Origin: Physcia stellaris
Taxonomy: Eukaryota; Ascomycota; Lecanoromycetes; Caliciales; Physciaceae
DNA: 25,337 nt
Assembly (NCBI GenBank): GCA_018902385.1
Contig: JABSSW010000111.1
Location: 1-25,337 of the forward strand
Reading direction: 5' to 3'
Below, piece after piece: positions 1 through 25,337 of this stretch. Each line of letters begins with the position of its first letter. The first letter of the stretch is position 1. Below the pieces are notes generated by a model. It did no database searches and was not told the origin of the DNA. It saw nothing but the letters and a program-made list of their open reading frames with translations. The position numbers were made by a program, and so were the translations under genes.

Positions 1-2433
1 AAATCATTCGAAATTCGATAATCGAATTGTTTGACGAAATACGAATCGCATTTTCGAAAATTTTAAATTTTTATTTCTTACATACGTTTTTTTTTAATAT
101 CGAAATTTTTTGAAATCAACATGTTAACAAAAATTTTGACGTTTTTTGTTTGTTTTGTTTTTGCATCGATTTGAAAAATCATTATAATCGTGATTTTCGC
201 ATTTCGAAATATTTTTGTTCGAATTCAATAATCAATTTACGTTAAAAATTCGAAAAAACATTTTTTTGAATGTTTCAAAAAAACATAATTTGATAAATCA
301 ATTGTTTGTTGTTTTCATGATCGAATGTTTGATTTCGTACAATTCACAATTTTCGATATAATAATTGACAATTGATTTGTTAACAAAAATTTTTGAATTC
401 GAACATTTTTTAATTTTTTAATTTTTTTGTTTCGAATATCAATATCGATATCATGAAAAAATGTGTAACGCGATAAACGTTCATTAATCGCGATCGCATT
501 TGATATTCAAATTTCGAAATTTTTTTTTATTTTTTTTTACATTTTTTATTTAACGATTTATCGTTTGATTAAATCGAACAACAATTTTTGAAAATATTTT
601 TGACACAATTCAATTTTTCATGCGTCGTAAATTTTAAACAATAAATAACATACAAAATTTTGAAAACGAAAATATGTTAACATGCGATAAATATTTCAAT
701 TTATTTTTTCGTGATTTTTGATGATTTGTTTTTTTTATTAATATCAAATTTTTTTGAATTTTCGTTGTAAAATTGTCGCAAAAATTTTTCGAAAATGTTT
801 GATAAACGATGCAAATTTTCAAATCGCATTTTATAATTTTTTTCATTTTATTAAATAATAAAAATCGAATTCGTTGTAAAATTTGTTTGAAATTTTATTT
901 GTTTTGAAAATTTTTTGTTTTTAATGATTTCGATTTTATAAAAATTTTTTGTAATTTTCATTTTCATGTTTTCGTCGAATTCGATATTTTCAATTTGATA
1001 CGAAAATTCAAAAAATTGTAATGTTTGCGCGTTTTTTTTTAAAAAAATTGAATTTTTTTTTAAAAAAAACATGAAAAACGTTGTAAATGCGTCAACGTTT
1101 GAATAATTTTAAACGATAAATTTGATTTTTTATAATTTTTAAAATTTTGAATGATTCGAAAAATTTTTATTTCAATTTTTTGTTTCGTTTAATTTTGATA
1201 TTTTTATCGTTCAAATTTACGTAATTTTCGACGTTGTATAACATTGATTTCGTGCGTTCGTTTTTGTATTTCGTTTGTTGTTGTTATATCACGAATAAAT
1301 TGTTTTTCAATATTCGAAATAATTCAATTAAATGTTCAACGTGTTTTTTTTGCGAATTTGAATTTAATTTTTTTGTTTCATGTTTTTCGAAAACATGCGA
1401 AACGAATATTCAAACATAATTTCGAACGAAAAAAATGTTTATAAACGCATATTTGTTGTTATTATAAACGAATTCGATCATGAACAATAATTTTATTCAA
1501 TCATTTTGTTCGAAATTGACGAAAACGTGAAAAAATTGTTTTATAACGTTGTTTATTCGTTCGATTTGTTCATCGATTTGAAAATAAAAATGATTAACAA
1601 TTTACGTTTGATTTTCAAAACGCAACACAACGTATGATTGTATTTAAATATGAAAATAAAATTTTTGTCGATAATAATTGACGAAAAAAATCATGAAATC
1701 GAATGATTTCGCGAAATATAATTTCGATCAAATTTTTGCGAAAATCGTTTTAATAATTGATATGTAATGAATCATTTTCGTTAAACGATTTATAATCATT
1801 AAAATCGAATCGTAAATCGTTTCATTTTACGTTTTATTTGAAAAAATTTTGTTACGAAATTCATGAAAAAATCAATTCATTTAAATTCAAAATCGAAAAA
1901 AAAATTCGTTGTATGATTTGTGTCGTGAAATTTTGTTTCGTTTGCAAACGACGCATGTTTTATAATGTTTTTTTGATTTATTATCGTATTTCAAAATTTC
2001 GATAAAATTTTGATTCGATTAATAATATTTTCGACGTATCAATTTCAACGTTCGTTCGATATCGAAATAATTAACGAACGAATTATCGTGATTAATACGA
2101 ATAACGTTTTCACGCAAATTTTTTGAAATGTAAACAACGTTGTCGTAATACAAAAATTCATTTTTGTGTTGTCAATGATTTGTTTTTGTTTTCAACATAA
2201 TTAATTTTCGACATATTTCAAAAACGAATTGATTTTTATTGATCAAATTTCGAACGAAATTCAACAATGAAAATGTTAATTCGTCGTTATATGTTGTTTT
2301 TTTTCGTAAAACAAAATGTATTCGAATTTTATGCATTGCACATTCAAATACAATCGTTAATTTTAACACAAAAATTTTTCATTTTATGAATATCACGTTT
2401 GATTTTTGTTCAATCGAATTTTTTGAATTTTTT

Positions 2434-2518
2434 GAATCGAATGTTTTCGAAACAACGTTAATTGAAATTCGATTTCGTTTTGAATTTTGAATCAAATGTT
2501 TTTGAAACAACGTTAATT
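2434..2518. repeat. 55-bp imperfect tandem duplication in copy A
   Basis: A unit starting at 2434 (GAATCGAATGTTTTCGAAAC) recurs at 2489 as GAATCAAATGTTTTTGAAAC, giving a period of 55 bp with a partial second copy to about 2518. In the first 20 bases the copies differ by two transitions only (G/A and C/T). It lies in the pol linker between RNase H and integrase of copy A. Confidence 0.7.
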
Positions 2519-2600
2519 AATTTGATATTTTTTGAATTATGTAAATGCGATCGACGTTTCATGTTATGTATCGTATTTATAAATCGTTTTATAACATGCA

Positions 2601-2605
2601 TTGCA
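2601..2605. repeat. Left target-site duplication of element 1 (TTGCA)
   Basis: TTGCA lies immediately before the 5' LTR and is repeated exactly at 8505-8509, immediately after the 3' LTR. A 5-bp duplication is usual for LTR retrotransposon integrases and fixes the element boundaries. Confidence 0.93.
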
Positions 2606-2820
2606 TGTGACGAACGTGCATCGATTTCAACATCTGAAATCAACATTTGATTAATCATTAAAATTAACATTTTTATTTTAACATCGAATGTTAAAATCGA
2701 AATTCGTTTTGATCAAATCATTTACATATGTTTTGTCAAATTTTTTCATGTATTTGTTTTTCATTTCGATATTCTCGTGTAATTATGTAATTAATTCATA
2801 TCTTTGCATATCATTTCACA
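2606..2820 (+). repeat. 5' LTR of element 1 (215 bp)
   Basis: It starts TGTGACGAACGTGC and ends CATTTCACA. It aligns along its whole length with the 3' LTR at 8287-8504 and the solo LTR at 15412-15628. Several differences from the 3' LTR are CT/TT or AG/AA transitions (for example ATTCTCG here against ATTTTCG there), matching the mutation signature of the window. A few short indels are also present. Confidence 0.93.
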
Positions 2821-2832
2821 TTATATCGAATT
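2821..2832 (+). promoter_or_regulatory. Possible decayed primer-binding site of element 1
   Basis: The bases just inside the 5' LTR read TTATATCGAA. Element 2, in its own orientation, also begins its internal part with TTATAT (complement of 13503-13508). A primer-binding site normally starts TGG, matching the tRNA CCA end; here GG would have been lost to mutation. The tRNA cannot be identified. The assignment rests on position and the shared six bases only. Confidence 0.3.
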
Positions 2833-4319
2833 TTTTTTTTCATGTTCGTTCATGATACGCGAACATTCAAATAAACAAAATTTTCTGTTAAATTCAAAAA
2901 TTGATAATGAAACATGATAAATTCGTATCGTTTGATCATTCAAAAAAAAAAACGTAATAAACTAATTGTGAATGCGAAAAAACGAAACATAATAGATTCG
3001 TTTGTCAATTCAATTGAATATTTTGACAAACGAATTTCAACGATAATCGATATCACGAAAACAACTTTCTTCGAACGTTGATTTAAATTCGTTTTATTTC
3101 AATTGACAAAAGCGTTTGATTTTTACGATGATTCGATCAAGTCATCAAATCAGATTTAAATCATCAAGAAACATCATACAAGAAATATCTGAACAAAAAT
3201 CGAATCAGAAATTTCGTCGTTGAATTAGAAATCAAATTCTTGATCATCGATATTCATTTTTCTTATTCGAAAATTTCTCGACATTTTATCAATTTTCTTA
3301 ACAAATCGATTGTTTTTTCACATCAACTCGATAACTTCAATATCGAGTCGAAAAATGATTGAATAATTCGCTAAAAAATCATTCAATTTCTTTTCAACAT
3401 TTGATATTGCAATCAACTTTTTTGTTCGAAAAACAATTCGAAAACGTGTTTGTTGACTCTAATAAAACGATTTTTCTTTCTAGTTTTTGCGATGAATTCT
3501 ATATCAGTTTTTTGAAATCTCATATCGAAAATCATTACATTAAAAATTTTCGATCGAAATTTCATTTCTCGATCGAATTCGAATCATCTATTTGCTTCGA
3601 GAATTTTTCAAAATTTTTATCAAATTTTTAACAAATCGATTTGTTTTTTCTTTTTCAATGATAGCATCAATATTCGAATCAAAAAATCAATCAATTTTTC
3701 GACAAAATTTTCAATATTGACAATTTCAAATCAATATCTGAATCATTTTTGATTTTTGAAAATTTTCAAAATTACATCTGTCGACTCTGCAAATCAATTT
3801 CGATTTTTCAACATTTGTGATAAAATCAATAACTTTTCGAATTCAAATTTTCAATATTTCGATAAGAAGTCAATATTGAAACTATTCGTTTTTCGAAATC
3901 ATTGCGAGATCATATCTGTTTCATTAACAAAAGATTTTGTTTTTTTCGTTTCGACGTTGAATTCAATATCGTTCTATCAGAAACGACAAGAATTTTCTAG
4001 CGAAATTTTATTTTCATTCGACATTGAATTTATTCATTGTGTCTGAAAACTTTTCGAAATCACATTCAATTATTCAACAAATCAACGTTTTTTTTCGATC
4101 ATTTAAATGATTTCAATATTCAAAAGTCTTGAAATTTTCAATTCGATTTTTCTTTACAATTGATCTGAAAACGAATTGTTCAATCAAATCGCAAATTTTT
4201 TTCAACATTTGCAACAATGTTTACATCTGTATCGTAAGTCAAATTTGCTAAATTTATTGTCGAAATGTCTGTGCGATTTCGCGTCTGAATGATTCAAAAT
4301 TCAATTCGAATTCATTTCG
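2833..4319 (+). other. Element 1 leader with Ser/Phe-rich ORF remnants
   Basis: This stretch holds two plus-strand open segments, 3359-3631 and 3756-4046, rich in Ser, Phe, Asn and Lys, with no domain I recognise. The second is in the same frame as the large ORF at 4320-6119 and is separated from it by stops, including a TGA at 4290-4292, so both may be upstream parts of one decayed reading frame. CT and AG dinucleotides are visibly more frequent here than in copies A, B and C. From 2833 to about 3350 I see no gene. Confidence 0.5.
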
Positions 4320-6119
4320 TTGAAACGCTTCAATAAAATTCTAGCGAAAACGTTTTTTTTTGCAAAAACATTTTCGCGACGTGTTTCATCAAAACGTTTG
4401 AATTTTCAACTAAATGCATTTGATGTTGTATCAACATCAACTGAAAATGCATCAAATCAACAAATCATTGAAACGATTTGCAAATTTTGCAAACAAAATT
4501 TCAATTTCAACAATGAATTATACGAGCATATTCGCAAACATGAAGTTTTGAAATTTGTTGAAAATTTTCATTTTTCGATCAATGCAATCAATTTAATATA
4601 TGAAATCGAGAAAAGATCATTCGTTTCGTCTGAATTTATTTTTAAATTTGCAACATTTCGAAAGCAAATATTTGAGTCAGCATTAATTTTCGAAATAATC
4701 ATTTCACAAAGAAATATTCGTTTTTCAATTCATACACTAAAGACTGTATCAGAATCGAAAAAGAATAAATCAATTCAATGTTTTTTTACTTCATCGAAAT
4801 CATCATTTCGAACGTTCGAATCAAAATTTCAAGAAATTTCTGTTCAAAAAACTTCAAACATCTGTTCATTTCTATCAAGTAATACAGTCAATTCAACGAG
4901 CGAAATCGCAAAAAAGTCATCAATTACATGTTCGTTTTCGACGCAAAAATCATCAATTTTCTTTGCAACATCAAAAAATTTTGTAACAAATACGAATGTA
5001 TCTTTGCAATTCGTTTCATTCAAAGATTTGCATTTTTCGATTACGACATTCGAAATCACATTAAAAGACGTTGAAATTACATCAAATTCGATTACGAAAA
5101 TCGCAGAAATTGTTGAAATTTTCGCAAAATCGATCGCAAATATTCGAATTCAAACTGTTCGCATTCGCGTTAAACGAAAAGTCGAATGTTCAAATTTCAA
5201 ATTACAAGCATTGAATTTTACATCAAAATCGATGAAAAAATTCTCGATTCAACAAATCGTTTGCGTTCGAATTTGCAAACGTTGCAAACAGAATTTCAAT
5301 TTCAATAACAAATTTCACGAGCATATTCGCGAACATCATGTTCGAAAATTTGTTCAAAATTTGAATTTTCGAATTTTCGCATCAGAATTTACATATAAAA
5401 TCAAAAAAAAATCAATATTTATTTGTTCATCTGTTTCGTTTGTTTCGCAGAAATCATTTATTTTCTTTGCAACATCACGAAATCGAATATCTTATTCTGT
5501 AACAATTTTCAAATCGATGTCATCAATTCGTTTGAATCTCTCGATTGCGTTACACGAAATCTTATCAAAACGCGCGAAAATTGCAGCAATGTTATTCACA
5601 CGAAATTTTACATCAAAACGAATCGAAATTGTTGCATTCAATTGTTCGTTTACATTTTCGATTTCATTTTCTCGAACATTTGTATCGAAATCTTATTTCA
5701 TTATGAATGATTTGAATCGCATGTTTCATGAAAAATCTAAATCATTTGATTTGCAACAACATCACAATCGTCGTTTTTCTCGACAGAGTTTCGACATTCG
5801 TCAATTTCGTTTCGCATTTTCGAAAAAGTTTTATTTTATTGTCGAAAATCTGTTCGAAATGTTCGATGAAAAATTCAAAAAAAAAAATCTATTTCAAAAT
5901 CAAAACAACGTATTTTTTCAAACGTTTTCAACTCAAATGCAAATCATCGTTTATTTCAAATTTACGATCAATCAAAAATCGTCGATTAATCAAAATTTGA
6001 AAAATTCAAAATCGAAAATTTCGAAACAACACATGTTTGCGAAATCAATTCGTTTTGTTCTGTCGAAAAATCGATCAATTTATCATACAAAATGTTTGAT
6101 ATTTTTTGCATCAACTTGA
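4320..6119 (+). CDS. Element 1 ORF with two C2H2 zinc fingers (599 codons, probably a mutated remnant)
   Basis: This is the longest open frame in the window. Two classical C2H2 fingers are visible: C54, C57, H70, H74 (Cys-x2-Cys-x12-His-x3-His, 4479-4541) and C319, C322, H335, H339 (5274-5336), both in the local context CKQNFNFNN. They sit in similar surroundings, so the protein looks like an internal duplication. The rest is Ser/Lys/Phe-rich and low in complexity. The translation has no Gly, Pro or Trp at all, as expected if GG and CC were erased, so the present sequence is not the original protein. There is no ATG until about residue 305; the frame opens at a TTG shortly after a TGA at 4290, so the true start is lost. 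The two fingers suggest nucleic-acid or protein binding, possibly as a gag-like or accessory product of the element. C2H2 ORFs of this kind occur in fungal repeat families, but function is unknown. Confidence 0.6.
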   Translation: MKRFNKILAKTFFFAKTFSRRVSSKRLNFQLNAFDVVSTSTENASNQQIIETICKFCKQNFNFNNELYEHIRKHEVLKFVENFHFSINAINLIYEIEKRSFVSSEFIFKFATFRKQIFESALIFEIIISQRNIRFSIHTLKTVSESKKNKSIQCFFTSSKSSFRTFESKFQEISVQKTSNICSFLSSNTVNSTSEIAKKSSITCSFSTQKSSIFFATSKNFVTNTNVSLQFVSFKDLHFSITTFEITLKDVEITSNSITKIAEIVEIFAKSIANIRIQTVRIRVKRKVECSNFKLQALNFTSKSMKKFSIQQIVCVRICKRCKQNFNFNNKFHEHIREHHVRKFVQNLNFRIFASEFTYKIKKKSIFICSSVSFVSQKSFIFFATSRNRISYSVTIFKSMSSIRLNLSIALHEILSKRAKIAAMLFTRNFTSKRIEIVAFNCSFTFSISFSRTFVSKSYFIMNDLNRMFHEKSKSFDLQQHHNRRFSRQSFDIRQFRFAFSKKFYFIVENLFEMFDEKFKKKNLFQNQNNVFFQTFSTQMQIIVYFKFTINQKSSINQNLKNSKSKISKQHMFAKSIRFVLSKNRSIYHTKCLIFFAST

Positions 6120-6280
6120 AATTTTTTGTCGAAATTTCTTTTTTCATTTTCATACTTTTTCGTCTTTTTTTTTTTTTTTTGTTTTCGCATTCGTTTCGAT
6201 CATTTTCGCTGCAAAAATGAATTGTATTAACGTTTATCAACAAGTCATTTCGATCATTGATCGTGTCAATATTGAATTTG

Positions 6281-6317
6281 TCGTTTCGAAACGAAGTTGA
6301 AAAAAATCGAGAAATAA
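6281..6317 (+). repeat. Internal copy of the element 1 3'-end motif (37 bp)
   Basis: This 37-bp block (TCGTTTCGAAACGAAG at its start, GAGAAATAA at its end) matches 8250-8286, directly in front of the 3' LTR, with about two mismatches. A related block is found in reverse complement at 12007-12044 in element 2. Here it is not followed by an LTR but by a segment (about 6379-6475) resembling part of the large ORF (about 5394-5500). That suggests an internal duplication of element modules. Confidence 0.75.
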
Positions 6318-6318
6318 A

Positions 6319-6756
6319 TTGCTCGAATATTCAGACACGAAACATCAAAAGTTCGAATTTTCAACTCTTTTTCAAAATCATGTACAAAATCAAAAAGAAA
6401 TCAACAATCGTTTGTTCGTCTGTTTCGTTCATTTCGTTTATTTTTCTTTGCAACATCAAAGTCGATATTTTGTTTTGCATCGATATTTGAATCACAATCA
6501 CGAAAATGTTCGCATTTTTCTATTGCGACACTCAATTCATTTCGAAATCGATGAAAAAGTATCAACAACATTTTCTCGATCATTTGTCAATATCAGTTTC
6601 GCATTATCGTTTATTTTGTTGTTTACAATCGATCAGAAAACGTTAACATCGAATTCGTTACAATTCATTTTCAAATTGATTCAAATGATTTTTTTCTCTA
6701 ATCATATGTTTCGTTATCATTTCGCGTTATTTACAGTCAGAATTTACGTCGCATAA
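6319..6756 (+). pseudogene. Partial repeat of the C2H2-ORF C-terminal module
   Basis: In one frame (around 6380-6440) the translation YKIKKKSTIVCSSVSF resembles YKIKKKSIFICSSVSF of the large ORF (residues 359-374). The DNA similarity covers roughly 6379-6475 against 5394-5500. A 145-codon open frame (6319-6756) covers the region but is shifted relative to the similar peptide, so the module has suffered an indel. No catalytic motif is visible. The fragment lies between the internal 37-bp 3'-end motif and a tandem repeat and is best read as a decayed second copy of the ORF module. Confidence 0.5.
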
Positions 6757-6984
6757 AAGACTGAATCGTGTCAAAAACATTTTCAAAGATTGTCGTTCGA
6801 TTTTATTGAACAATGAATGATGTAAAATGTCATGCAATGATATAAATAAATAACAAATTGTCAAAGAAAATTCGAACATTTACAAGTTTGATCAACAAGA
6901 TTTTCAATTGCTTATTAATGATTGACGAAATTATTTGTAAAATTCGTACAAATTATTTGATTTTCAAAAAGTTTATCAAAGACA

Positions 6985-7390
6985 CGTTTTGCTGAATGCA
7001 ATGTACGAATCAACTTTCGTATACGCGCAAATATCAATACGATAAACGTCGAAACGATGATTTTACAAACACGATCAAATTGCTTTTTTCGTGATGTGAT
7101 CGATTTGATATTTCAAAAATTCTTAACGAATCAATTTCGCAAACGAAATGCATTTCGAAAAATATTAACGATCATCAAATCGTCAAAATTGTTTTTGAAA
7201 GATTGTTTAAATCGATTGTTTTTCAGAAAATTCATTACATTCACGTTGCACTGAATGCAATGTACGCATTTATTACGTCATCTGTGTAAATATCAACGCG
7301 TTAAACGTCGTTGCGCGAATTTCATTAACATGACGAAATTGTTCGTTTCATCGTATAATCGATTTAATATTGCAAGAATTCAACGTTTAC
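6985..7390. repeat. Degenerate tandem repeat, period about 259 bp, in element 1
   Basis: CTGAATGCAATGTACG occurs at 6992 and again at 7251. The flanks are also similar: ATATCAA followed by TAAACGTCG and later CGATTTGATATT against CGATTTAATATT. The two units are diverged and their outer limits are uncertain. No coding function is evident. Confidence 0.6.
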
Positions 7391-7845
7391 ATTAATGTTT
7401 TCATTACATTCAAAAGTTCGAGTTTTCGATTTTTACATTTTAAATTACGTATTAAATTCTGAAGACGCAAATTCTCGATCGTTTGTTTATTTCATCAAGT
7501 TTCGCGAATTGATTGCAAATCAATTTCTTTATCAATTGCAATGATTTCGATTTCAAATATTTCGCATAAATTTGTTTTCGTCATCAAAATACAAATATTT
7601 TTATTCACATCGAAAATCTGATAGAAAATCGTTATCTTGATCAAAAATTCAGAGCGCTAAACAATTTTCTCGTCTCGATCAATTTGCTTTAAGATTTTCA
7701 AATTTCAGATATTTTCAAATGATTTATCATATCATTTAATCGCAAATATCATAATTCACGTTTAACGATCAAATTTCGAATTGAAATTCGAAAACGTTTT
7801 CACTTTTTCTATTATGTATTTGTATTAATTTTTAATGAACATTGC
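7391..7845. other. Non-coding stretch of element 1
   Basis: I see no gene, known repeat or motif here. It keeps some CT and AG dinucleotides (around 7590-7700), like the rest of element 1. Confidence 0.5.
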
Positions 7846-8244
7846 ATGCATATTTTGAAATTTACAAAAAAAAACGCGCTTTTATCATACAAAAAGAACG
7901 CGATATCTTTGCATATTTCAATTGTTTTAATAAATTTTTCACATTTCGATTCAAGCGCAAATTATTTGATGAATTTATATGTTTCGAGAAAACGATCGTT
8001 TCATCATATTAAATATCAAATATTTTCGACATTTAAAAATTTTCGCAAACATCAAAATCGCATCGATTTGCAAAAATCGTTTTCGTCTTTTTCGTCGTTT
8101 TCGTTTTTTTCGTCGTTTTCGTCGTTTTCAATTCAAACTTCTGTACATTTTCATGATTGTCGCGTTCGTTATGAACTTAAAACATTTACGAACAAATCAT
8201 CGAAATCACGTACATTGTCGATCGATGAGAAAAAAAAACAATAA
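7846..8244 (+). pseudogene. 3'-terminal ORF remnant of element 1, shared with element 2
   Basis: The 132-codon frame contains SRKRSFHHIKYQIFSTF and ends near LSIDEKKK. Element 2 encodes, on the minus strand at 12007-12330, the similar SRNRSFHHINLQIFFAS and MSIDRKND, also next to its 3' LTR. In element 1 the following out-of-phase sequence reads RFETKLKKTRNN up to the LTR. This is therefore a conserved 3'-terminal coding module of the two elements. A Ser/Phe tract in the middle comes from a TTTTCGTCG-type repeat. No known domain is visible and no Gly, Pro or Trp remains. Function is unknown. Confidence 0.5.
8078..8130. repeat. TTTTCGTCG-type simple repeat
   Basis: The stretch is built of TTTTCGTC and TTTTCGTCG units (for example TCGTCGTTTTCGTCGTTTTC) and encodes an alternating Ser/Phe tract in the plus-strand frame. 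Loss of CC from a Ser/Pro-rich repeat could have produced it, but that is inference. Confidence 0.7.
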
Positions 8245-8264
8245 ATTAATCGTTTCGAAACGAA

Positions 8265-8286
8265 ATTGAAAAAAAACGAGAAATAA
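8265..8286 (+). promoter_or_regulatory. Polypurine tract of element 1
   Basis: A nearly pure purine run (GAAAAAAAACGAGAAATAA at its core) ends exactly at the 3' LTR, where the plus-strand primer of an LTR retrotransposon is expected. The equivalent in element 2, complement of 12007-12027, is also purine-rich. This supports the plus orientation of element 1. Confidence 0.65.
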
Positions 8287-8504
8287 TGTGACGAACGTGC
8301 ATCGATTTCAACATTTGAAATCAACATTTGATCAAACACTTCAAAATTAACATTTTTATTTTATCACATCGAATGTTAAAATCGAAATTCGTTTATGATC
8401 AAATTATTTACATATGTTTTGTCAAATTTTCATGTATTTGTTTTTCATTTCGATATTTTCGTGTAATTATGTAGTTAATTCATATTTTTGCATAACATTT
8501 CACA
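8287..8504 (+). repeat. 3' LTR of element 1 (218 bp)
   Basis: It starts TGTGACGAACGTGC and ends CATTTCACA, and aligns throughout with 2606-2820. It is followed directly by the target duplication TTGCA. Confidence 0.93.
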
Positions 8505-8509
8505 TTGCA
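8505..8509. repeat. Right target-site duplication of element 1 (TTGCA)
   Basis: An exact copy of 2601-2605, directly after the 3' LTR. Confidence 0.93.
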
Positions 8510-10330
8510 TTCATGATTTTGATCGCATTTATTCGCATTTTTTCGAAATGTTTCGAATTTGCGATCAATAATTTTTGCAATTGTTTCAAAATTTGACGAT
8601 TACTTTCGACGTTTTTTTCAATAATCATCATGTGATCAAATCGTTTTGAAAATTTATCAACAAAATTTTTGTTATCGAAACGATAATCGATTAAAAAATT
8701 GTATCGATTCAATTTTTAAATTTATCGAATTTGACATGACGACAATTTAATTGTGATTATAAATTGTTTCAAATTGCGATAATTAATAAAAACAAAAATT
8801 TGTTTTTTTGCGTTTTCGAAATAATGTTTTCATTGTTTAAACGAAATCACAATAATTAACAATTTTTTGTTATAAATTTCGTAATAATATTCGATCGAAA
8901 TCATTTTGCGTGAAAAATACGCGACAAAATGTCAATGATTTTCGTCGTTTTGTTGACATAAAATGATTTCGATAATTTTGTCGAATGCGTCGATTTCGAT
9001 TCGAATAACACGTTCGAAATCGAAATAACGTAAAATTGATATTTCGATAAATATTTTGCGAAATCGTTTGAAAATTTTCAACGTTTCATTGATCAAAAAA
9101 TGTGAATATTCGAAAATTTGTTGCGATTTCGATTTCGATTTCGTTTGCATTTACGAATATTTTTTCGTAATTTTTGCGATTTTTTTAACATAACGATCAA
9201 AAATTCAACAATTTTATTGAAATGTTTAATGAATCGTCGATAAAAATTAACGATGTCGAAAAATTGCATAATATCGAAAACATTACGAAATACAAATTAT
9301 TGTTGAATAATTTCGATTTTTTTGTTTTGTATTCGTATTTTTTTGAATGAAACGACGAATTCAAAAAAATTTATTTCGTCAACGAATTATTTGCATTTTT
9401 TAAAAACAATATATAATTTTTTTTTAAAACGATCAAAAATTCATTTAATATCGTCGACATAAATTTCGACGTTTATCGAATAAATTATTATATCGTTCAA
9501 ATATATTATAACGTTAATATCGAAACGAATTGTCAAAATTCGATTGATAAAATTTTGAAACGTTGTCGAAACGTTAATAAAATCAAAAAAATACGTTATA
9601 TTCGAAATGATTATATCGAATACGAAAAATTATTTTTTATTCGTTTTTATGTTTGATATGCAATCGATAATAAACAACAATCAAATCGATGTTAATATAT
9701 TTGACGAATTTGTTGAATTTATTTAAATTTTTATCGATTAACGATAAAAATATTTATTTTTTATCGTAAAAACATTAAAATTTTTGTAATTCACATATAA
9801 TCGTAAATTATCGTTTTTTTAACGAACAAAATAAACGTTTTTGCAAAAAATTGTGAAAATCGAATGAAATCGTTAATTAAATGTTTTTCGATATAAACAC
9901 GTAATATTCGAAATTCATTTTCAAATAAAAAATAAATTGATTCATGCGACGATTTTTTGTTTTTTTTTAAATCAATAATATGATCGTTTGAATCATGATT
10001 CGATAATTCGTAAATTTTATTTTCGTTATCGAATTTTTCATACGTTTTCAAAATTTCGAAAAACGTGATTTTGATATCGAATTTTTTTTTCATTTTCGTC
10101 AAAACAAATTTTATTTGAATTCGTTTTGAAACGTACATTTCATGCATGTCGAATTGTTTGTTAATATACATTCGTACGAACATGAAATACGTTTCAATTT
10201 TGTTATCGATGACGTTTTTTGTTAATTGTTTTGATTCGATGTTTTCGATACGATTCGTGATAAAAATGAAATGTTTTTTTTTGTAACGTCAAATTTTGAT
10301 ATTGTCGTCGTTTTGATTTATTTTGATTTT
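8510..10330 (-). pseudogene. Ty3/gypsy copy A, reverse transcriptase and RNase H (decayed)
   Basis: Read on the minus strand from 10183 downward, the translation gives a Ty3/gypsy reverse transcriptase N-terminus (YELSNHDSNDHIIDLKK, then FILFVKK). Next come TTFQNFINRIL and the catalytic box as YLND (codons 9492-9503), where the family has YLDD. The RNase H start follows at 8932-9150 (LRYFDFERVIRIEIDAF). The RNase H tail and linker lie at 8500-8712 (DYRFDNKNFVDKFSKRFDH, corresponding to a DYRPGKKN-type motif). The order RT, RNase H, then integrase across element 1 is the Ty3/gypsy order. Stops and frameshifts separate the pieces, and Gly, Pro and Trp positions are all replaced. It cannot encode an active enzyme. 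Confidence 0.88.
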
Positions 10331-11809: not shown

Positions 11810-11814
11810 ATCAT
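11810..11814. repeat. Left target-site duplication of element 2 (ATCAT)
   Basis: ATCAT lies directly before the element and again directly after it at 13843-13847. It sets the element boundaries. Confidence 0.9.
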
Positions 11815-13842: not shown

Positions 13843-13847
13843 ATCAT
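13843..13847. repeat. Right target-site duplication of element 2 (ATCAT)
   Basis: An exact copy of 11810-11814, directly after the element. Confidence 0.9.
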
Positions 13848-15406: not shown

Positions 15407-15411
15407 TGCAA
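15407..15411. repeat. Left target site of the solo LTR (TGCAA)
   Basis: TGCAA precedes the LTR and TATAA (15629-15633) follows it. The two differ by G/A and C/T transitions and are probably one duplicated site, since mutated. Confidence 0.6.
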
Positions 15412-15628: not shown

Positions 15629-15633
15629 TATAA
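15629..15633. repeat. Right target site of the solo LTR (TATAA)
   Basis: See the partner at 15407-15411. The match is three of five bases, and both mismatches are C-to-T-type transitions. Confidence 0.55.
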
Positions 15634-15707
15634 CAGAATTCGACAATCAATTCGATGAAATCGTTGACGAATTCGTCGAAAATTCGAACGAAAAAAACAT
15701 CGATTTT

Positions 15708-15743
15708 GTCGAAAATGATGTCGTCGTCGAAAATGATGTCGTC
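15708..15743. repeat. Perfect 18-bp tandem duplication in gag of copy C
   Basis: GTCGAAAATGATGTCGTC occurs twice head to tail (15708-15725 and 15726-15743) without a mismatch. It adds six in-frame codons (Val-Glu-Asn-Asp-Val-Val) to the acidic part of gag. Confidence 0.9.
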
Positions 15744-16641: not shown

Positions 16642-17412
16642 CGATTTCGTCGAAACGATAAAAATCGTGACAAAAACATAAATTTGAAAAACGTTTGAAA
16701 TCGTCGTTGCATGAATTGCACGATAATCGCGATGAATCGTTCAAAATCGATAAAAAAACGATTTGATAATTGAAAATGAACAAATTTCGTTTATCGCAAT
16801 TACGATTTCGAAAATGTCAAATTTAAAAACGTCGAAATTTTGAAATTTTGAAATTCGTAAAAACAATTCGTACATTTCAAAAATACAATCGAAAAACGAA
16901 TTGATGTTTTTAATCAATTTGAATGTTAATAAACGTATGTCGAAAACGTGATTACGTTTCGATATGAATGCAAAAAAAACGTCGCGTCGTTGTATTTGCG
17001 AATTCAAATGTTTTTCATTGTTTCATTGTTCAACGCATTGTCGATTTGTTGAAATTAAAATTACAACATTTTTTTGACAAAATGCAATTGAAAAATGATA
17101 AAATTGTTAACGTCGTTGATTTCATTAAATTTAATTGAAACAAAAATGAATTTCATACAATCATTGATTGTTTGATTTTTAATATGAATAACGATTTGAT
17201 TTTAAACGAAAATTTTTGACAAAAATATCGTTTAATTTTTGAATACAATACGTTCGATATGCGTGTAACAGACGAAAATCAAAAATTTCTGTTTGCGAAC
17301 ATGAAAAATTACAATTTTCGTTTGCAAATTTTCGAAAATCAATCATTTGAAATTCAAATTGTAACGAAACGTGTTTTCGAACGATTGATACAAAAAAAAC
17401 GTTCAAATTTAT
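16642..17412 (+). pseudogene. Copy C protease and protease-RT linker (decayed)
   Basis: Between the gag knuckle and the reverse transcriptase, a plus-strand frame reads FHTIIDCLIFNMNNDLILNE and then NF, a TGA at 17217-17219, QKYRLIF. The order and the DLILNE segment fit the C-terminal part of a retroviral-type aspartic protease, where DLILG or DVILG is usual, and the TGA probably replaces a Trp. Downstream, RVTDENQKFLF to RLIQKKRSNLF (about 17259-17410) is a linker that leads into the RT frame. I cannot place the catalytic DTG or DSG with confidence. From 16642 to about 17040 I see no readable domain. Confidence 0.55.
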
Positions 17413-18760
17413 TTGTACGTTGTTCATATTATTGATCAAAAAATCGTCAAATCGTTTGAAAAATTTGTTTTTATTCAACACATTATCGACAACGCAAAAT
17501 TGAACAAAATTTTGAGTTTCGATGTGTTGAAAAAAATTTTTAAAAACGATTTTTCGAATCAATCATTTTCGAAAAAATTGCAAAATCATCGCATTGATAT
17601 TGAAAACGCTAAATCAATAAACAAGTTTTCGTACGAATTTTTTAAAAAACAATTGAACGAACAAATTATTCAAATCGATTATTTAACAAAAAAAAATTTA
17701 ATACGATCAAGCACGTCGTCATAGAAAACGTCAATTTTTTTTGTCAAAAAAAAATAATTTTTGACGTATGTGTATAAATTATAGAATTTTCAACGCGATG
17801 ACGCAAAAAAACGACTATTCATTGTCGAAAATTCAAAATTGTTTAAACATGATCGAAACAACGAAAAATTTTAACAAAATTGATTTAATTAATGATTATT
17901 GACAAATCAATATGATCGAAAAAAATCGTCACAAAACAACATTCAATATCAAACGAAACAAATATAAATTTTGCATCATGTTTTTCGAATTGATTAATAT
18001 TTTTGCGATTTTTCAAACAATCATGAATGATATGTTGAAATCGTATTTGAACAAATTTGTGATCGTTTATTTGAACGACATATTGATTTATTTCAAAAAT
18101 AACGAAAACATTTCGAACATGTGAAATTTGTGATTGAAATTTTTCATAAACATGATTGTTATGCGAAATCGTCGACATGTTTTTTTTTCAACAACAAATT
18201 GAATTTTGTGAACATATCGTTGATAATGATGAAATACGTATGAACGAAATCAAATTGAAAATTATACAAAATTGATCGTCGTTTCAAACGATATACGATG
18301 TTCGTTTTTTTTTAAATTTTTGTGTTTATTATCGAAAATTCATAAAGAATTTCGTCATTATCATTGAATCACTTTATGAATTTATTCAAAAAATCAAAAA
18401 TCGCAAATACAAATCGATGTTTATAACATTTTCGATCAAAAACGTTTTTACGATCATCAAAAACGTTACGTGTAATAATCGTGTATTGACACAATTTGAT
18501 ACGTTTTTGTCATTTATCATTGAAATCGATATTTCGAATTTCGAATAAGAAACGATGTTTTATCAAATAAATTTCGATAACAAAAAACATTTTTTTGTTT
18601 TCGAAAACAAAACATTTTTTTTCGTTGAACGTAATTATGCGATTCACGAACGTGAATTTTTGATTATCAAAAAAAAATTGCGAATGTAAAAAAATATACG
18701 ACTGAATGATCAAATGATTACAAACAAACGCAATGTTTACGAAACGATGATAAATCATCG
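17413..18760 (+). pseudogene. Ty3/gypsy copy C reverse transcriptase and RNase H (decayed)
   Basis: Motifs appear in Ty3/gypsy order: NLIRSSTSS (up to 17721), IFFVKKK, RMCINYRIFNAMTQKNDYSL (from 17765), NKIDLINDY followed by TGA at 17900-17902 where the family has Trp in YWQI, and the catalytic box YLND (18068-18079) for YLDD. HVKFVIEIF, IEFCEHIVDNDEIRM and the RNase H segment FFVERNYAIHEREFLIIKK (about 18620-18680) follow. At least two frameshifts are visible, one in the A-run near 17746-17754 and one near 18090-18105. Several stops are TGA at expected Trp positions (17762-17764, 17900-17902, 18273-18275). The wording differs clearly from copies A and B, so this is a separate family. I could not recognise an integrase downstream. 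Confidence 0.88.
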
Positions 18761-19353
18761 TGATAACATTGTGAATAATGATAAAGTTGAATCGTGAAAA
18801 CGAAAAAAAATGAAAATTTTCGAAATGTTATATTTTATCGATCAAGACGTTAAATTCGATCAAATTAACGTGTTTAACGATTTTGATATGACATGACAAT
18901 TGTTTTTTTTTTTAATTTTTGATTTTCAGAATCGAATCGTCGATGTTTTTTTTGCGCGTAACTCATTCGATTTTTCAATTTTTTCGTTTAAAAATTTTTT
19001 TTGATAATAGTTTTTTGTGTGACGTTAATTCGTTGTTTGCGCGACGTTCAATCGAAATTTATTTGTAAATGTCAATATTAATGTTCGCGATCATGCGATA
19101 ATTTTTTTGTTAATCGTGATATTGTCATTTGCGATATATCACGACATTTATGATACACGACACGAATATGTTCAAATCAATATTCGTTCGAATCATCAAT
19201 ACATTGTTGTTTTTGTTGAACACGCGAAAACAGACGTTTTTGCGACGTTTGTTTTTCGCGAATTCAAATTTTTTGATTGTAATTTTTGATTTTTGTGTCA
19301 CGCATTGTTTTTCGAACATTGAAATAAACAATTTAAATCAATTTTTTGTATGA

Positions 19354-19720
19354 TTCAAATGATTTAACGATAAAACGTTAAAATCAAAATTTTTGATTTT
19401 AAAAATAATCGTTCAAATCGATTTTTGAACAATGTTTTTTTGTTTTTTGTTTCGTTTTCTTTTTGATTTAATGACGATTTTTTTACGTTTTATCAATGTT
19501 ATTTGATTTTACGCGTGATAATTTATTCGTGTCAAATTAAATTGACATATAATTTCAATTTGATTTTTATTTGTCATCGTTCAAATGATTTAATGATAAA
19601 ACGCAAAAATGAAAATTTTTTCATTTTTGAAATTGTCGTTCGAATCGACGTTTCAATATCGCTTTTTTGTTTTTTTGTTTTTCGATTTGTATTTTGATGA
19701 CGATTTTTTTGTGTCACGTC
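19354..19720. repeat. Tandem repeat, period 226 bp
   Basis: TTCAAATGATTTAACGATAA begins at 19354 and TTCAAATGATTTAATGATAA at 19580. Both are followed by similar blocks: an AAAATT..TGATTT/CATTTTTGAAAT inverted arm, CGTTCAAATCGATTTTTG against CGTTCGAATCGACGTTTC, a T-rich run, then ATGACGATTTTTTT. The second unit is seen to about 19720. Confidence 0.7.
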
Positions 19721-20780
19721 AAATATAAATAAATTTGTTTCGATTTTCATTCATTATTATTTTTACATGATTCATTTTCATTATCAATGACAAATGTTCA
19801 TTGTAATTCAAATGATGAAATGTTCATTGTAATTCATAAATCGATGACGTGACGACGATTTTATTTATTATTACGTTTTCAATGTGAAATGAAAAAAATT
19901 AATTTTCAATTGTTCGAATCGACATTAATTCGTTGTCGTTAAACAAACGTTTTTTCGCGTTCATTGCATGATTTTTTTTCGTTTCATTTGCGATTCATCG
20001 CGTTCGTCGTTTGTTTAATAAATATGTTGAATATTTGATTAACGTTTTGACGCGTACACAAAAATTTATCGCGATCATTTTTTCATTTTTTTTTTCAATA
20101 TTATTTTGAAACAATTTGATAAAAATGTTTTTCGTGTTTAAATTGTGTTTCGTTGACGTTGACAATTTTGTACAATATCAACATTGTCAACAATAAATTT
20201 ATTGTTTTTTTGATTGTTGTTATTGAAACACACAATGATTTCGCGTGATATCAAAATCAAAATTGTAAATTTGATTTGATTTCGTGATTTCGTGCGTTCA
20301 TTTTTGTAATTTTTTAAACGTGTCGTGAACACGTTTCGTGTAAAATGTTGTATAAAATGCGTCAAACGCAAATTTGACGATGTCGAACATGAAATATGTA
20401 TTTTGCGTTTTCAATTGATCGCGTTGATTTACGCAATGTTTTCGATCGTTTTACGACGACAAATGTTATACGTGCGTGTCGATGCGTAAATTTTGCATAT
20501 CAATTTTTTTTAAATATGTTCGTCGAATTCAACAACATTTGATGATTTTGACAATTGCAATAAAAAACAAACGCACGAATTTGATGTTCAATTTGCAATT
20601 GCGTTTGAAAAATGCGATTGTGAAAATTCAATAACATTTCACAAAACAAAAAAAATCAAATCAACATCGTTTTATTGAAAATTTGTTGATGCGTTTGAAA
20701 TTTCGACTCGTCGATATCAATAAAATTTTACGTTTTATGATCGATTCGTTTTTGTAAAATACGAAATGTGACATCAAAAA

Positions 20781-20855
20781 TATATAGTTTCTGATTGATA
20801 ATTAGATTAATTTCTAAGAAATCAGAAATTCTAATCATTATTTTCTCGCTATATA
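20781..20855. repeat. 75-bp CT/AG-retaining patch with short terminal inverted repeats
   Basis: It begins TATATAG and ends CTATATA and contains an imperfect inverted repeat around TTTCTAAGAAATCAGAAA. CT and AG are frequent in it and CG occurs only once, unlike the sequence on either side. It could be a miniature inverted-repeat insertion or a conserved regulatory hairpin. No target duplication is obvious. Confidence 0.35.
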
Positions 20856-21016
20856 CAAATGTACGAATAAAAAAAATAAAAAATTTCAATTGCAAATCAT
20901 TCGATTTGTTGTTTGTTGTTGTATAAAAAAATGCAAACAGCATTTTTTCGAATTCGATGTTTGTTTTGCATGTTGTCATGATGCATATCTCGATTTTATC
21001 GAAACTCGATCATATT

Positions 21017-22179
21017 TTATGTCGATTTGAATTTTGAATGTTTTACATGCGTTTTTTTTTTTACATCGAAATTTTTTGAAATCATCAGAACTTTTTCATT
21101 TGTTTTGTAGCAAAAATTTTTAAATTTGTATATTTTTTGATTTGAAAAATCATTGTCGTCGTGATTTTCGCATCGAAAATCGTTGATTTGAAAAATCATT
21201 GTGATCGTGATTTTCGCATCGAATATTTTTCGCAATTCACAATCAATTTGCGTTAAAAATTTGAAAAAACATTTTTTTAAATGATTCAAAAAAAACATGA
21301 TTTGATGATTTTACTGTTTGTTGTTTTCAATATCGATGATTTGATTTCGTACAATTCACAATTTTCGATATGATGATTAACAATTGATTTGTTGACAGCG
21401 AAATCGAATTCGAATTTTTTTTGCATATTTTATTTTTTTGTTTTCGTATATCAAAGTCGATATGTTATTGCACGTTGTTAAACGAAATAAATTCGAATAA
21501 TCGCGATCGCAATTGACATATCAAATTTCGAAATTTTCATCGTTGCATTCAACAACATATTTCATATTTATATTCAACGTTCAATCAAATCGAACAACAA
21601 TTTTTGAAAATGTTTTTGACACGATTCAACTTTTCATGCGTCGTAAATTTTAAACAATAAATAACATCGAATCAAATGTGAAATGTTGATTTTTTTGTCA
21701 ACGATTTTATCGTGAAAATTACATTTATTTGACGTCGAACGCGTCGACGATTCGTAAATTTATTGACATCGTTTTTTTTCGAATTTTTCATATGAAATTT
21801 TTTGAACATATTTTTAAAATGTTTGATCATTGAAACGAATTTTCAAATGCGTTTTTCGTAATTTTTTCATTGAACGAAATAATAAAGTTCTGATTCATTA
21901 TATGATTTGTTCGAAATTTGTTTTTCTTTGTAAATTTTGTTGTTTAAAATGATTTCGATTCAATATTTTTCATTGATGAATTTTTCGTTTTTTTCGATAT
22001 CGATGTCATTTGATTGATACGTGAATTTTAACGAAATTTTTTTTTTTTTTTTTAAATATGATTTTTTCGAACAACGAAACGTGAAAACATTGTGAATTCG
22101 TCAACGTTTGAATATATTTATGCGATATGTTTGATTTTTTATTGTATTCAATATTTTGAATGATTCGAAAAATTTTATT
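21017..22179 (-). pseudogene. Copy B integrase C-terminus and element 3' part (decayed)
   Basis: This aligns by eye with 61-1160 of copy A (for example TTCATGCGTCGTAAATTTTA near 619-638 and at 21634-21653). It lies directly after the integrase region on the minus strand. An integrase C-terminal domain or chromodomain is expected here in Ty3/gypsy elements, but stops and frameshifts prevent recognition. A 93-codon open frame at 21017-21298 contains a tandem duplication not present in copy A. Confidence 0.55.
21137..21221. repeat. 46-bp tandem duplication specific to copy B
   Basis: TTGATTTGAAAAATCATTGT followed by CGTCGTGATTTTCGCATCG starts at 21137 and recurs at 21183 (period 46) as the same block with GATCGTGATTTTCGCATCG. 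Copy A has a single unit at about 168-210. A 46-bp insertion also shifts the reading frame. Confidence 0.85.
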
Positions 22180-23000
22180 TCAATTTTTTGTTGCGTTTGA
22201 TACGAATATTTTGACGTTAACGTTGACGTAATTATTTACGTCGAAATTTATCAATTTGATTTTAACATTTTTGTATTTGATTTGTTGTTTTTGAACGTAA
22301 ACTAAATTGATTTTCAATATTTTCATCAGTTCGATCAGTTTTTCGACATGATTTTTAACAAATTTAAATTTAACTTTAAAATTTGCAAAATTTTCGAAAA
22401 ACATTTTGAACGTATATTTTTGCATCGTTTCGAACGATGACATTTTTAACGCATGCTTATTATTGTTATAAACAAATTCAATCATCGACAATAATTTTAT
22501 TCAATCGTTTTGCTCGAAATTGACAAAAATTTTGAAATATTGTTTCATGATTGAGTTTTGTCGTTTCGTTTGATCATTTGTTTGCGAATAATAAATCGTG
22601 AATAATTTCAATTTTATTTTCAAAACATAACACAATGCGTTATGATATTTAACGATAAAAATCGAGTTTTTGTTTGTTGTTATTGACGATGAAAAGTCAT
22701 GAAATCTAATGATTTTTCGAATCAAAATTTCGACGAAATTTTTTGCGATCATCGTTTTCGTGATTGAAATATAATGTGTCATTTTGATCAATCGATTTAT
22801 CACGATGAATATTGCATCATACGTCGTTTCATTTCATGTTTTGTTTTTTGAAAAATTTGTTACGAAATTCATTGTAAAATCAATTCATTTGAATTTTTCG
22901 ATATAAAAAAAACGAGAATTTTTCATATGATTTGTGACGAAATGTTTTGTTTTTTTTGCAAATTGCACATGTTTCGCAATATTTTTTTATTTGTGTTCGC
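22180..23000 (-). pseudogene. Copy B integrase (decayed)
   Basis: On the minus strand, the zinc-binding CETC (codons 22967-22978) followed by KKNKTFRHKSYE matches the end of the HHCC domain. The integrase core begins at about 22803 with INRLIKMTHY, continues IRKIIRFHDFSSSITTNKNS and ALCYVLKIKLKL, and reaches QTNDQTKRQNSIMKQYFKIF and FVNFEQND. The next frame starts MSMIEFVYNNNKHALKMSSF (22491 downward). These are the characteristic segments of a Ty3/gypsy integrase. The first catalytic Asp (usual DRLxKM) is Asn, and the second (usual SDRGS or TDRGS, here TNKNS, codon 22672-22674) is Asn as well, so the active site is lost. The frame breaks between 22491 and 22501. Confidence 0.9.
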
Positions 23001-24100
23001 ATGTTCGAATCGTGTTCGACGTTTTTTTCGAAATTGTTTCGCTTTTGATTAAATCAATAATATTTTTTTCGTATCAATTCGAAAATACGTTTTATTTCGA
23101 ATGACGACGAAAAACTGTCATAATTTGTTTTTATGACATTTTTTTTTCAAATTTGACGAAACGTACAAACAATTATCGTGTCACAATATTTTTTTCGTTT
23201 TGTCAATGCGAATGCACATATCAAAAATAATTAATTTTTGTTTCATTTCAATCGCGCATGAATTTTGATTTAACAATGAACGTATTAATTCGACGAAATT
23301 GTCAATGCTTTTATCGTCGTATGCAATATCATGTTCGTGAATATGTTTTTTTGCAAACATTTCGTTGATCGATTGAAAAATCGTCGCATTATTCAATATT
23401 AATATTTTTTATTCATCGACGATCACGTTTGACGACATTTTTTGAAAATCAAAAAATCATTCGCAAATTTGTTTTTTTTATTATTGAATTCGAACATCGT
23501 TGTTTTAATTTCGTTCACGCAAATTTGAAATTCGTTCGAAATCGATTGCAAAAATTGTCACAAACGCGTCAAAATGACGATTGTTTTCAATTTTTTTAAT
23601 TGCGATCATACGATCAAATCGTCGAAACAAATCGTTTTCAAAATTTTTGTTGTCAAAAACGATAATCGATGACGAAATTGTAACGAAACAATTTTTGCGT
23701 TTATCGTATTTGTCGAAACGATAATTTCGTTCAATCATGATGAAACGATTGAAATTTCAAAAAATATTCGTCAAAACGAATATTTGTTTTTTCGTTTTTT
23801 CGAAATAATGACGTCATTGTTTGAATGCGAAAATTATGATCAAAATTTTTTGTCGTGAATTTCATAATTACATTTCGCTGAAATTATTTTTTTGAAAAAT
23901 AAATTATCGAATATCAAAATTTTGATCGTCGAATTGACAAAAATTTCATTTATTGTTTTGTTCGAAACGTCGATTTTCACACGTATGAATTTAATCGAAT
24001 CGAAATGTTGCAAAATAAATGTTTTCAAAAATGCATTTCGTAAACGTTTGAAAATTTCGTAAATTTCGAAAATCAAAAAATCATTCGACAATCGTTTTTT
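23001..24100 (-). pseudogene. Copy B RNase H and linker to integrase (decayed)
   Basis: At 23840-24091 the minus strand reads LKTFILQHFDSIKFIRVKID and later KCNYEIHDKKF, the start and the NYEIHDKE-type segment of a Ty3/gypsy RNase H. At 23505-23738 it reads IVFDNKNFENDLFRRFDRM, the end of the same domain (usual YRPGKKNPADGLSRR). The open segment 23181-23396 falls in the linker before the integrase zinc finger and has no recognised motif. Pro and Gly positions of the family are replaced by Phe, Ser, Asn or Asp throughout. Confidence 0.82.
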
Positions 24101-25337
24101 GTTGTGATTTTTGTTTCGATTTTTGTTCGAATTACGTTTTCGTTTGATTTTTTTTTATGAAATTTTGTTGATTTTTTTAACATTGAAATTAAAAATCGCC
24201 AATTTATTGAAATTTTTGTAATCGTCTATAGAAATTGCACAATTCAAAAATTTCAAAATTTTTGACACGTTTTTGAACGTCGATCATTTTTGTATGACAT
24301 CGATTTTATTTTTTTGCATCTGTATTTTTTTTGAAAATACAACGAAATTTAGAAAATCAATGTTGTTTTGAAAATTTACATTTTTTTCATATTGACGGTA
24401 AAAGTTTGTGTTTTCGCAAACGATTTAACATTCATTTGACGTTTTCGATGTGTTGTTTTTCGTTCATGAAATATATGATTATATCGTTCAAATAAATTAC
24501 GATAATGAAATCGAATCGTTCGATCAAAATTTTATTGACGAAATTTTGAAACGTCGCAAATGCATTAATTAAATCGAAAAACAAAACGATATATTCAAAA
24601 TGTTCATATCGTGTTTTGAACGTCGTTTTTCATTCATCATTTTTTTTTATACGTAATTTATTGTATGTTGTTATCATATCAAAATTTGTATAAATGCGAA
24701 TTTTGTTCAAACGATTTAAATTTTCATCAATTAACGACAAAAAATATTTATTTTTAATCGTCAAGAAATTCAAATTTTTGTAATTCACACACAATTTCAA
24801 AATTTTCTTTTTTTTTTTGACGAACAAAAATTGATGTTTCGATTGAAAAATGAAAGTTTGATGAAATCGTTTTTGAAATGTTTGTTCAAATAAAATTCGT
24901 AATATTTTGAATTCGTTTTTTGACAAATTCTAATAAACGAAATCGTAAAAGATTTTTTGTTTGATTTCAAATCAATAACATGATCGTTTGATTCGTGATC
25001 AAATAATTCGTATGCTTTGTTTTCATTTGTCAAATCAACGAATTTTTTTCAAAATTTCGAATATAATGATTTTGATATTTGATTTATTTTTCATTTTCGC
25101 AAAAATCGAATCAATTTGCAGGTTCGTCGTTCGATGTGTACGTTATTCATGCTTTTTTTTTCGTCATGAAAAAATTCGTACGAACATGACGAAAATTTGT
25201 TTTTTTGTTATCGACGACAATGTTGATTAATTTTTTCGATTCGATTTTCTCGATACGATTTACGATTAAAAAAAACGATTTTACAATCAATAATCACGAT
25301 TCGATTTTGTCGATTTTTCAATTTATTTTTGCGTTTG
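24101..25337 (-). pseudogene. Copy B reverse transcriptase (decayed, right-truncated)
   Basis: The minus strand contains, in order, YELFDHESNDHVIDLKS (within 24797-25033), FLFVKKKKKILKLCVNYKNL, FLTIKNKYFLSLIDENLNRL and IYTNFDMITTYNKLRIKKND (24630-24926). These match the Ty3/gypsy segments LCVDYRxLN, TIKNRYPLPLIDE and KxDLRxAYN. The catalytic box is YLND (codons 24483-24494) for YLDD. Motif wording and order agree with copy A, so A and B are one family. Two of the few GG dinucleotides in the window are here (24397-24398 and 25121-25122). The window edge removes gag and the 5' LTR. Confidence 0.88.

Follow-up and report, generated by a model that had tools for sequence, protein, structure and literature searches.

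Loss of CpC and CpT from retrotransposon remains of Physcia stellaris: a probable repeat-induced point mutation process with an inverted neighbour preference

Introduction

Repeat-induced point mutation (RIP), as known from Neurospora crassa, follows the order of target preference CpA>CpT>CpG>CpC cited in PMC5496416; here and below, published systems are described from the available portions of the papers cited. The question raised by contig JABSSW010000111.1 (C111) of the Physcia stellaris assembly GCA_018902385.1 (43.97 Mb, 147 contigs) is which process could have left a sequence with the reverse composition. The stretch analysed, termed the window, is this entire contig (positions 1 to 25,337; 25,337 bases); it is made of retrotransposon remains, and on both strands over its whole length CpC/GpG are erased and CpT/ApG are scarce, while CpG and most CpA are kept. 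A sequence-only reading had proposed that a RIP-like process with a preference for CpY (Y, pyrimidine; R, purine) acts on repeats of this genome, a proposal that is supported by two polarised element families and by alignments of the window's own elements. We favour, with a probability of about 75%, a RIP-type genome defence that acts on repeats and changes C to T, the preference being CpC > CpT >> CpA > CpG.

Dinucleotide composition of the window

All 16 dinucleotides were counted over the full window and compared with expectation. CC occurs twice (at 15083 and 24199) and GG three times (at 13176, 24397 and 25121), with 397 expected for each. The total of about five CC or GG estimated earlier by eye is exact, as are the positions 13176, 15083 and 25121 given with it; the "24197-24199 region" is a single CC, and the GG at 24397 had not been listed. 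CT and AG, likewise described as rare, were observed 199 times against 1273 expected and 169 times against 1104 expected (ratios 0.15-0.16), the corresponding ratios of CA, TG, CG and TA are 1.37, 1.21, 3.68 and 0.42, and the GC content is 25%. This bias is far beyond chance. When both strands are combined and C/(C+T) is sorted by the 3' base, the proportion is 3050/6056 (0.504) before A and 2918/5968 (0.489) before G, and 368/9955 (0.037) before T and 5/3357 (0.001) before C. For the roughly 360 bases from 22141, three C before T and none before C had been reported, which the count over 22141-22501 (361 bases) reproduces; the figure of about 30 before A or G becomes 19 before A and 18 before G.

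In a simulation, all CpC of a random sequence of 50-55% GC were converted to TpC and 85% of the CpT to TpT, and the resulting table of dinucleotide ratios was like that of the window, with TA likewise depleted and CG in excess. The simulated TA ratio was 0.47 for a start at 50% GC and 0.41 for a start at 55% GC, compared with 0.42 in the window. Because the conversion of CpY reproduces both features, neither requires a separate cause.

Repeats and sampled single-copy loci

The signature is confined to repeats in the loci sampled, where single-copy status refers to the methyltransferase genes and eight arbitrarily placed 4-kb loci and not to a genome-wide count. In four methyltransferase loci representing three genes (L003-L006), CC reaches 0.93-1.00 and GG 0.89-1.00 of expectation, whereas CC amounts to 0-0.34 of expectation in 29 repeat loci; the two highest of these (L031 and L035) extend beyond the depleted sequence, which gives way to normal DNA over some 250 bases. 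Seven of the eight arbitrarily placed loci are normal, with a C/(C+T) before C of 0.40-0.54, and the eighth (L046) is nearly without CC and GG in its last 1.5 kb or so, a stretch that may or may not be repetitive. The same bias in single-copy genes, which the earlier proposal had named as evidence that would overturn it, was not seen at the sampled loci, L046 being normal in part.

The AT-richness of the window (25% GC) could in itself be the outcome of compositional drift or of an assembly artefact, with no directed mutator. The sampled unique DNA of the same assembly is normal, however, and an abrupt change from CC-free to normal sequence such as that in L031 and L035 also argues against it. 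This explanation is ruled out by the aligned copies of the two families described below, which differ from their unmutated relatives mainly at CpY, and we regard its probability as negligible.

Direction of change in two Gypsy-type families

Unmutated relatives were obtained from a genome search for reverse transcriptase (RT), in which 150 of 527 candidate matches were scored and 10 of these 150 were free of stop codons. Among the stop-free matches are L037 (C5:1164501-1169500) and L038 (C12:58301-63300), both Gypsy-type by their Pfam domains, with 52.5-53.0% GC and intact CpC; they are free of the signature, which does not imply that they are functional. In the part compared, the two are about 5% apart, and sites with C in one and T in the other show a mild excess at CpY (65 differences vs 734 shared C, as compared with 40 vs 740 at CpR; Fisher p 0.02). 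With the DNA of L037 as query, at least 44 matches of 69-100% identity were obtained, 33 of which extend over almost the full 3.1 kb, from the best 40 of 250 candidates scored; 42 of the 44 are listed at 69-82% identity, and some are pieces of one copy.

For family 1, eight mutated copies were chosen to span the range of identities, and changes were counted only where L037 and L038 have the same base. Conversion of C to T was observed at 2495/2695 CpC, 1899/2573 CpT, 149/2655 CpA and 65/2696 CpG sites. Changes of C:G to T:A were far above all other substitutions, and targets on the plus and on the minus strand were mutated in all eight copies. Family 2 was polarised by L039 alone (C52:253801-257800), a signature-free Gypsy-type element with the domain order RT-RNase H-integrase, and comprised three of its eight near full-length relatives, only C or T outcomes being counted. 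Here, the conversions were 1085/1118 at CpC, 1013/1204 at CpT, 98/1135 at CpA and 41/1025 at CpG, with changes of T to C at 1.2-1.8%. The CpA preference that is usual, though not universal, in RIP is seen in neither family, as is evident from these CpA counts (149/2655 and 98/1135) when set against those for CpC. The direction of change in repeats, C to T, and its context and hierarchy are thus observed directly, and the tabulation of transitions by 3' neighbour that had been suggested as a check places the C-to-T changes at CpC and CpT in repeats.

The youngest copy of family 1 (L049) was converted at 265/330 CpC (0.803), 137/316 CpT (0.434), 4/330 CpA (0.012) and 1/338 CpG (0.003) sites. It carries 402 CpY changes, four changes of T to C at 1217 sites and no transversion at the sites counted. 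Because its heavy conversion of CpY is accompanied by almost no other change, it reflects a burst rather than slow decay.

Sequence context and order of loss

The base that follows the C decides, and the preceding base matters less. In the two youngest copies, the conversion of CpC varied with the 5' base between 0.82 and 0.90, and that of CpT between 0.29, when G precedes, and 0.56, when C precedes. CCC was converted at 0.73 vs 0.89-0.90 for CCA and CCG, as expected if mutation of the central C comes first and turns the preceding site into CpT. The cumulative hazards CC:CT:CA were 133:47:1 in L049, 105:53:1 in L051 and 26:17:1 in L056, the most diverged copy, whose CpC sites are saturated and which has gathered other mutations as well; overall, the hazard of CpC lies 26- to 143-fold above that of CpA.

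The nesting of a younger long terminal repeat (LTR) retroelement in an older Gypsy-type element within the window provides an independent check. In the older host, C before T is reduced to 2/1102 at 1-2650 and to 1/1367 at 8521-11780, and the proportions before A and G are 0.445 and 0.511 in the former part and 0.413 and 0.522 in the latter. In the nested element (2651-8520), CpC is lost, C before T still amounts to 205/2264, and the proportions before A and G are 0.564 and 0.463. From these strata, it follows that CpC is lost first and CpT next, CpA being lost slowly and CpG hardly at all. Among near-identical copies of three window segments, the varying CpT columns hold mostly T and few C, and the varying CpA columns mostly C and few T. 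The earlier statement that CpA is spared has to be modified, since the oldest strata of the window retain C before A at 0.41-0.45; the slow decay of CpA in window segments, nesting strata and family 2 rules out a context that is spared entirely.

Strand tracts and independence of copies

Action on one strand at a time is supported by one copy, L049. At alignment positions 1080-1351, none of its 38 minus-strand targets is mutated vs 19/25 on the plus strand, and at 2790-3100 the counts are 1/26 vs 40/50; its same-strand clustering exceeded that in 300/300 shuffles. The sister copy L050 (C51) is mutated at 28/38 minus-strand targets in the first of these stretches. Outside of 1080-1351 and 2543-3072, L049 (C95) and L050 differ at 8/482 target sites, and inside these stretches the plus strand also differs (6/25 and 13/72), so that the two stretches may have separate histories, including an exchange with another mutated copy. 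In total, 76/671 target sites differ between both copies vs 252 expected for independent mutation, and the pair represents one event. This sharing suggests that duplication or movement of an element followed its mutation, or that copies exchanged sequence. In contrast to this pair, L051, L052 and L053 were mutated nearly independently, because the target sites that distinguish them pairwise number 144/685, 148/690 and 166/683 vs 170, 167 and 178 expected.

Candidate enzymes and rival explanations

A genome profile search with PF00145 gave four matches in three genes. One of these (L004, C3) matches 9bap_A with an E value of 2e-181 (608.6 bits, query residues 220-905 of 1009), and it has the Pfam domain DUF7893 and a BAH match below the cut-off. 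The entry 9bap, a fungal enzyme of solved structure, we take from its length to be DIM-2 of N. crassa, and L004 is accordingly annotated as a predicted relative of DIM-2. The second gene (L005/L006, C5) encodes PCQ and EQT motifs, motifs VIII and IX of L005 being some 78 residues apart as counted by eye, and the third (L003, C6) encodes PCQ and EET motifs. L003 and L005 are 40% identical over 174 catalytic positions and share an N-terminal region with 34% identity over 149 positions; in a search limited to the open frames used, which do not cover upstream exons, no BAH match with E up to 1 was obtained for either. Since EQT or EET instead of ENV in motif VI and a short target recognition domain of about 80 residues mark the RID/Masc1 group (PMC6709928), which is without BAH (PMC7862722), L003 and L005 are predicted to be two diverged RID-like methyltransferase genes, one of the EET and one of the EQT type. 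Deaminases were searched for with two profiles: APOBEC_N (PF08210) had no match in the genome at E up to 10, and PF00383 had 11 at E up to 0.1, some of which should be ordinary deaminases of nucleotides and tRNA. Of the enzymes for which a search had been suggested, the methyltransferases were thus found, with two RID-like genes and one DIM-2-like gene, and the unusual deaminase was not, as far as APOBEC_N is concerned.

Judged from these gene predictions, RID appears to be the likeliest cause. Under the favoured RIP-type defence, duplication would be the trigger and the mutations would be set before meiosis by one of the two RID-type methyltransferases, either the EQT protein encoded on C5 or the EET protein encoded on C6, whose readout of the +1 base would have changed from CpA to CpY. 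Mutations would come as a burst, the older copies looking like the product of further rounds, in which nearly all CpC would be lost first, then CpT and then, slowly, CpA.

A different part could be played by the DIM-2 relative. Methylation of CpC and CpT in repeats by an enzyme of this type, with the 5-methylcytosine being deaminated in the course of vegetative growth, would lead to the same transitions and would not involve RID-driven RIP. In Zymoseptoria tritici, dim2 promotes changes of C to T at CpA in mitosis (PMC8016269), and DIM-2 of Neurospora prefers CpT according to a review (PMC13297926), both of which lend some credit to this alternative, as does the presence of L004 itself. The youngest copy speaks against it, with CpC 80% converted, T-to-C changes at 4/1217 sites and no transversion: slow decay would require a rate hundreds of times over background, and a burst better accounts for the tract of about 270 bases in L049 in which one strand alone is mutated. 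We consider this route unlikely.

The strand-wise tracts of C-to-T changes in L049 also resemble the action of deaminases on single-stranded DNA, and the 11 PF00383 matches could be taken as candidates for a separate DNA cytosine deaminase of the AID/APOBEC type acting on repeats. AID/APOBEC enzymes read mainly the 5' neighbour, whereas the 3' neighbour decides here, and no PF08210 match was found even at E up to 10, which makes such an enzyme a very improbable cause.

Several observations weigh against a RID-driven RIP-type process or reduce the weight of the data in its favour. RID is implicated by the presence of its genes, and the genome also encodes a DIM-2 relative. The loss of CpA reaches 0.17 in one copy (L062). 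The limits of the tracts in L049 were picked after the data had been seen, and in the other seven family-1 copies mutations on the same strand cluster only weakly (r -0.03 to 0.04), the observed value being attained in 11 to 258 of the 300 shuffles, perhaps because later rounds have blurred the tracts; one-strand tracts as a general feature are rejected, as they are clear in L049 alone among the eight copies. L049 and L050 are not independent, yet both enter the pooled counts of family 1. Finally, the signature-free L037 and L038, about 5% apart, coexist with the 42 listed matches of 69-82% identity. The persistence of these two elements may indicate that the process is not fully efficient, that the copies are recent or that they escape; for L037, L038 and L039 together, recent arrival, the lack of a recent cross or something else may be responsible.

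Stop codons and RIP indices

Mutation of CpY has a distinct effect on reading frames. In the eight copies of family 1, TGG became TGA at 91/104 codons and CAA or CAG became TAA at 2/263, and TGA accounts for 92/99 of the stops gained; the 150 scored RT matches contain 250 TGA, 33 TAA and 3 TAG stops (counts transcribed by hand). Stops thus arise almost only from TGG because the mutations fall on CpY.

The common RIP indices do not respond to this type of mutation. With the thresholds given in PMC7882544 (product >1.15, substrate <=0.75, composite >0), none of the 25 one-kb pieces of the window reaches the product, substrate or composite threshold. The composite index lies between -0.63 and -1.17 in 40 repeat loci, and in 12 unmutated loci it lies between -0.42 and -0.73 for 11 of them and at -1.11 for L047; it does not cleanly separate mutated from unmutated loci because these ranges overlap. 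The CpY/CpR ratio does separate them among the loci computed, the 12 unmutated ones giving 0.96-1.10, five mutated copies 0.01-0.37 and the window 0.062. The usual detection indices consequently miss mutation of the CpY type, and a simple ratio catches it within this set.

We see an even chance that these features define a distinct class of RIP, in which an enzyme of the RID type, perhaps the EET paralogue, would read a +1 pyrimidine, CpC and then CpT, would act on one strand at a time, would create few stops other than those from TGG, and would have gone unnoticed since the common indices stay negative.

Comparison with known systems

The changes in P. stellaris resemble RID-dependent RIP of N. 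crassa in that C:G is converted to T:A on both strands of repeats, AT-rich transposon remains result, and RID- and DIM-2-type genes are present; they differ in that CpC, the last context in N. crassa, comes first, and in that TpA is not enriched. In Trichoderma reesei, C is likewise changed to T in duplicated DNA and a RID-like gene is present (PMC6709928), but CpC again comes last, the preference being printed as "CpA~CpG CpT>CpC", with a sign seemingly lost between CpG and CpT (PMC5496416). A survey of ten genomes describes signatures at CpA, CpT and CpG, of which CpT predominates in Magnaporthe oryzae and Botrytis cinerea T4, and the available part of its text does not contain "CpC" (PMC4352252). 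Anisogramma shows CpA and CpT signatures and has two rid genes (PMC10998396), and the EET triad has been named for RID of B. cinerea (PMC6709928). With Botrytis, Sclerotinia, Magnaporthe and Anisogramma, P. stellaris thus shares the targeting of CpT and one or two RID/Masc1-like genes; as far as these sources describe them, CpA is also a target in those fungi and CpC gives no signature, whereas in P. stellaris CpA is nearly spared and CpC leads. The CpG-type signatures of Microbotryum (TCG) and Tuber melanosporum are similar in being a transition bias in transposons (PMC4352252) and dissimilar in context, CpG being the most spared context in P. stellaris. The Dim2-promoted mitotic mutation of Z. 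tritici is repeat-associated, leads from C to T and is linked to a methyltransferase, but its context is CpA (PMC8016269). In Monilinia, double mutations of CpC to TpT occur beside classical CpA changes (PMC8959702). For RIP, a duplication threshold of about 400 bp and 80% identity has been given (PMC2621366).

In the accessible portions of the literature on repeat-induced point mutation and CpC (including PMC2621366, PMC3017866, PMC5496416 and PMC5555474), CpC was not found as the main target of RIP, the survey of RIP in ascomycetes by Clutterbuck (2011), cited in PMC8959702, being outside this comparison; in PMC5602860 and PMC9073689, as far as available, "CpC" is a strain name and not a RIP target. 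A literature search combining "repeat-induced point mutation" with "CpC to TpC" found no paper. An order in which CpC comes first and CpA is spared is probably, but not certainly, unreported.

The observations bear on the questions of how RID picks its targets and whether its chemistry is methylation or deamination, its catalysis in vitro not having been detected according to a review (PMC13297926). The inverted preference offers a natural comparison of sequence and function between the two RID paralogues of P. stellaris and the CpA-type RIDs elsewhere.

Retrotransposon remains in the window

The coding remnants of the window were located by tblastn, the queries being those open frames of L037-L040 that encode 250 residues or more, with domain names taken from Pfam. 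RT, RNase H and integrase stretches lie at 9848-8665, 24926-23846, 17738-18106, 22881-22267 and 2117-1053. L040 (C39:287801-292300) is a gene of the LINE (long interspersed nuclear element) type with endonuclease and RT domains in an open frame of 833 amino acids, and it is without the signature; its open frames had no tblastn match in the window, and a genome search found no second copy of it.

The integrase side of the older Gypsy-type element occupies 1..2605 on the minus strand (tblastn matches at 2117-1257 and 1589-1053), with 30-2648 being 68% alike to 20995-23693; bases 1-29 may be other sequence. The element continues at 8510..10324, also on the minus strand, with RT at 9848-9180 and RNase H at 9087-8665, and 8517-10324 is 68% alike to 23503-25329. 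Between both parts lies the younger LTR retroelement (2606..8504), placed on the plus strand by its open frame at 4320-6119 only. Its left LTR (2606..2820) begins with TG and ends with CA, its right LTR (8287..8504) was delimited by alignment of the pair, in which 2605-2822 is 92.8% alike to 8286-8506, and the element is flanked by a target-site duplication of 5 bp at 2601..2605 (left copy) and 8505..8509 (right copy), the same five bases as judged by eye. The frame at 4320..6119 (plus strand) encodes 599 amino acids with repeated zinc-finger-like C-x2-C...H-x3-H motifs, read by eye, and has no Pfam match; it may have stayed open in an otherwise wrecked element owing to the restriction of new stops to TGG.

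A further element at 11781..13850 contains short direct repeats (11778-11913 similar to 13471-13607, and 11900-12006 similar to 13736-13842) and has kept part of its CpT (C before T 68/806). Repeat segment A (15632..18692) includes an RT remnant at 17738-18106 on the plus strand and has nine aligned copies elsewhere that are 92-95% identical, and repeat segment B (18685..20751) has ten that are 91-95% identical. The Gypsy-type element at 20753..25337 on the minus strand, with RT at 24926-24363 and integrase at 22881-22462, is kin of the older one, and six aligned copies of 20753-24000 are 90-97% identical. When 15501-24000 was used as query, at least 65 matches were obtained in the genome, the query itself included, from the best 40 of 1005 candidates scored, and about 40 of them show 90-97% identity.

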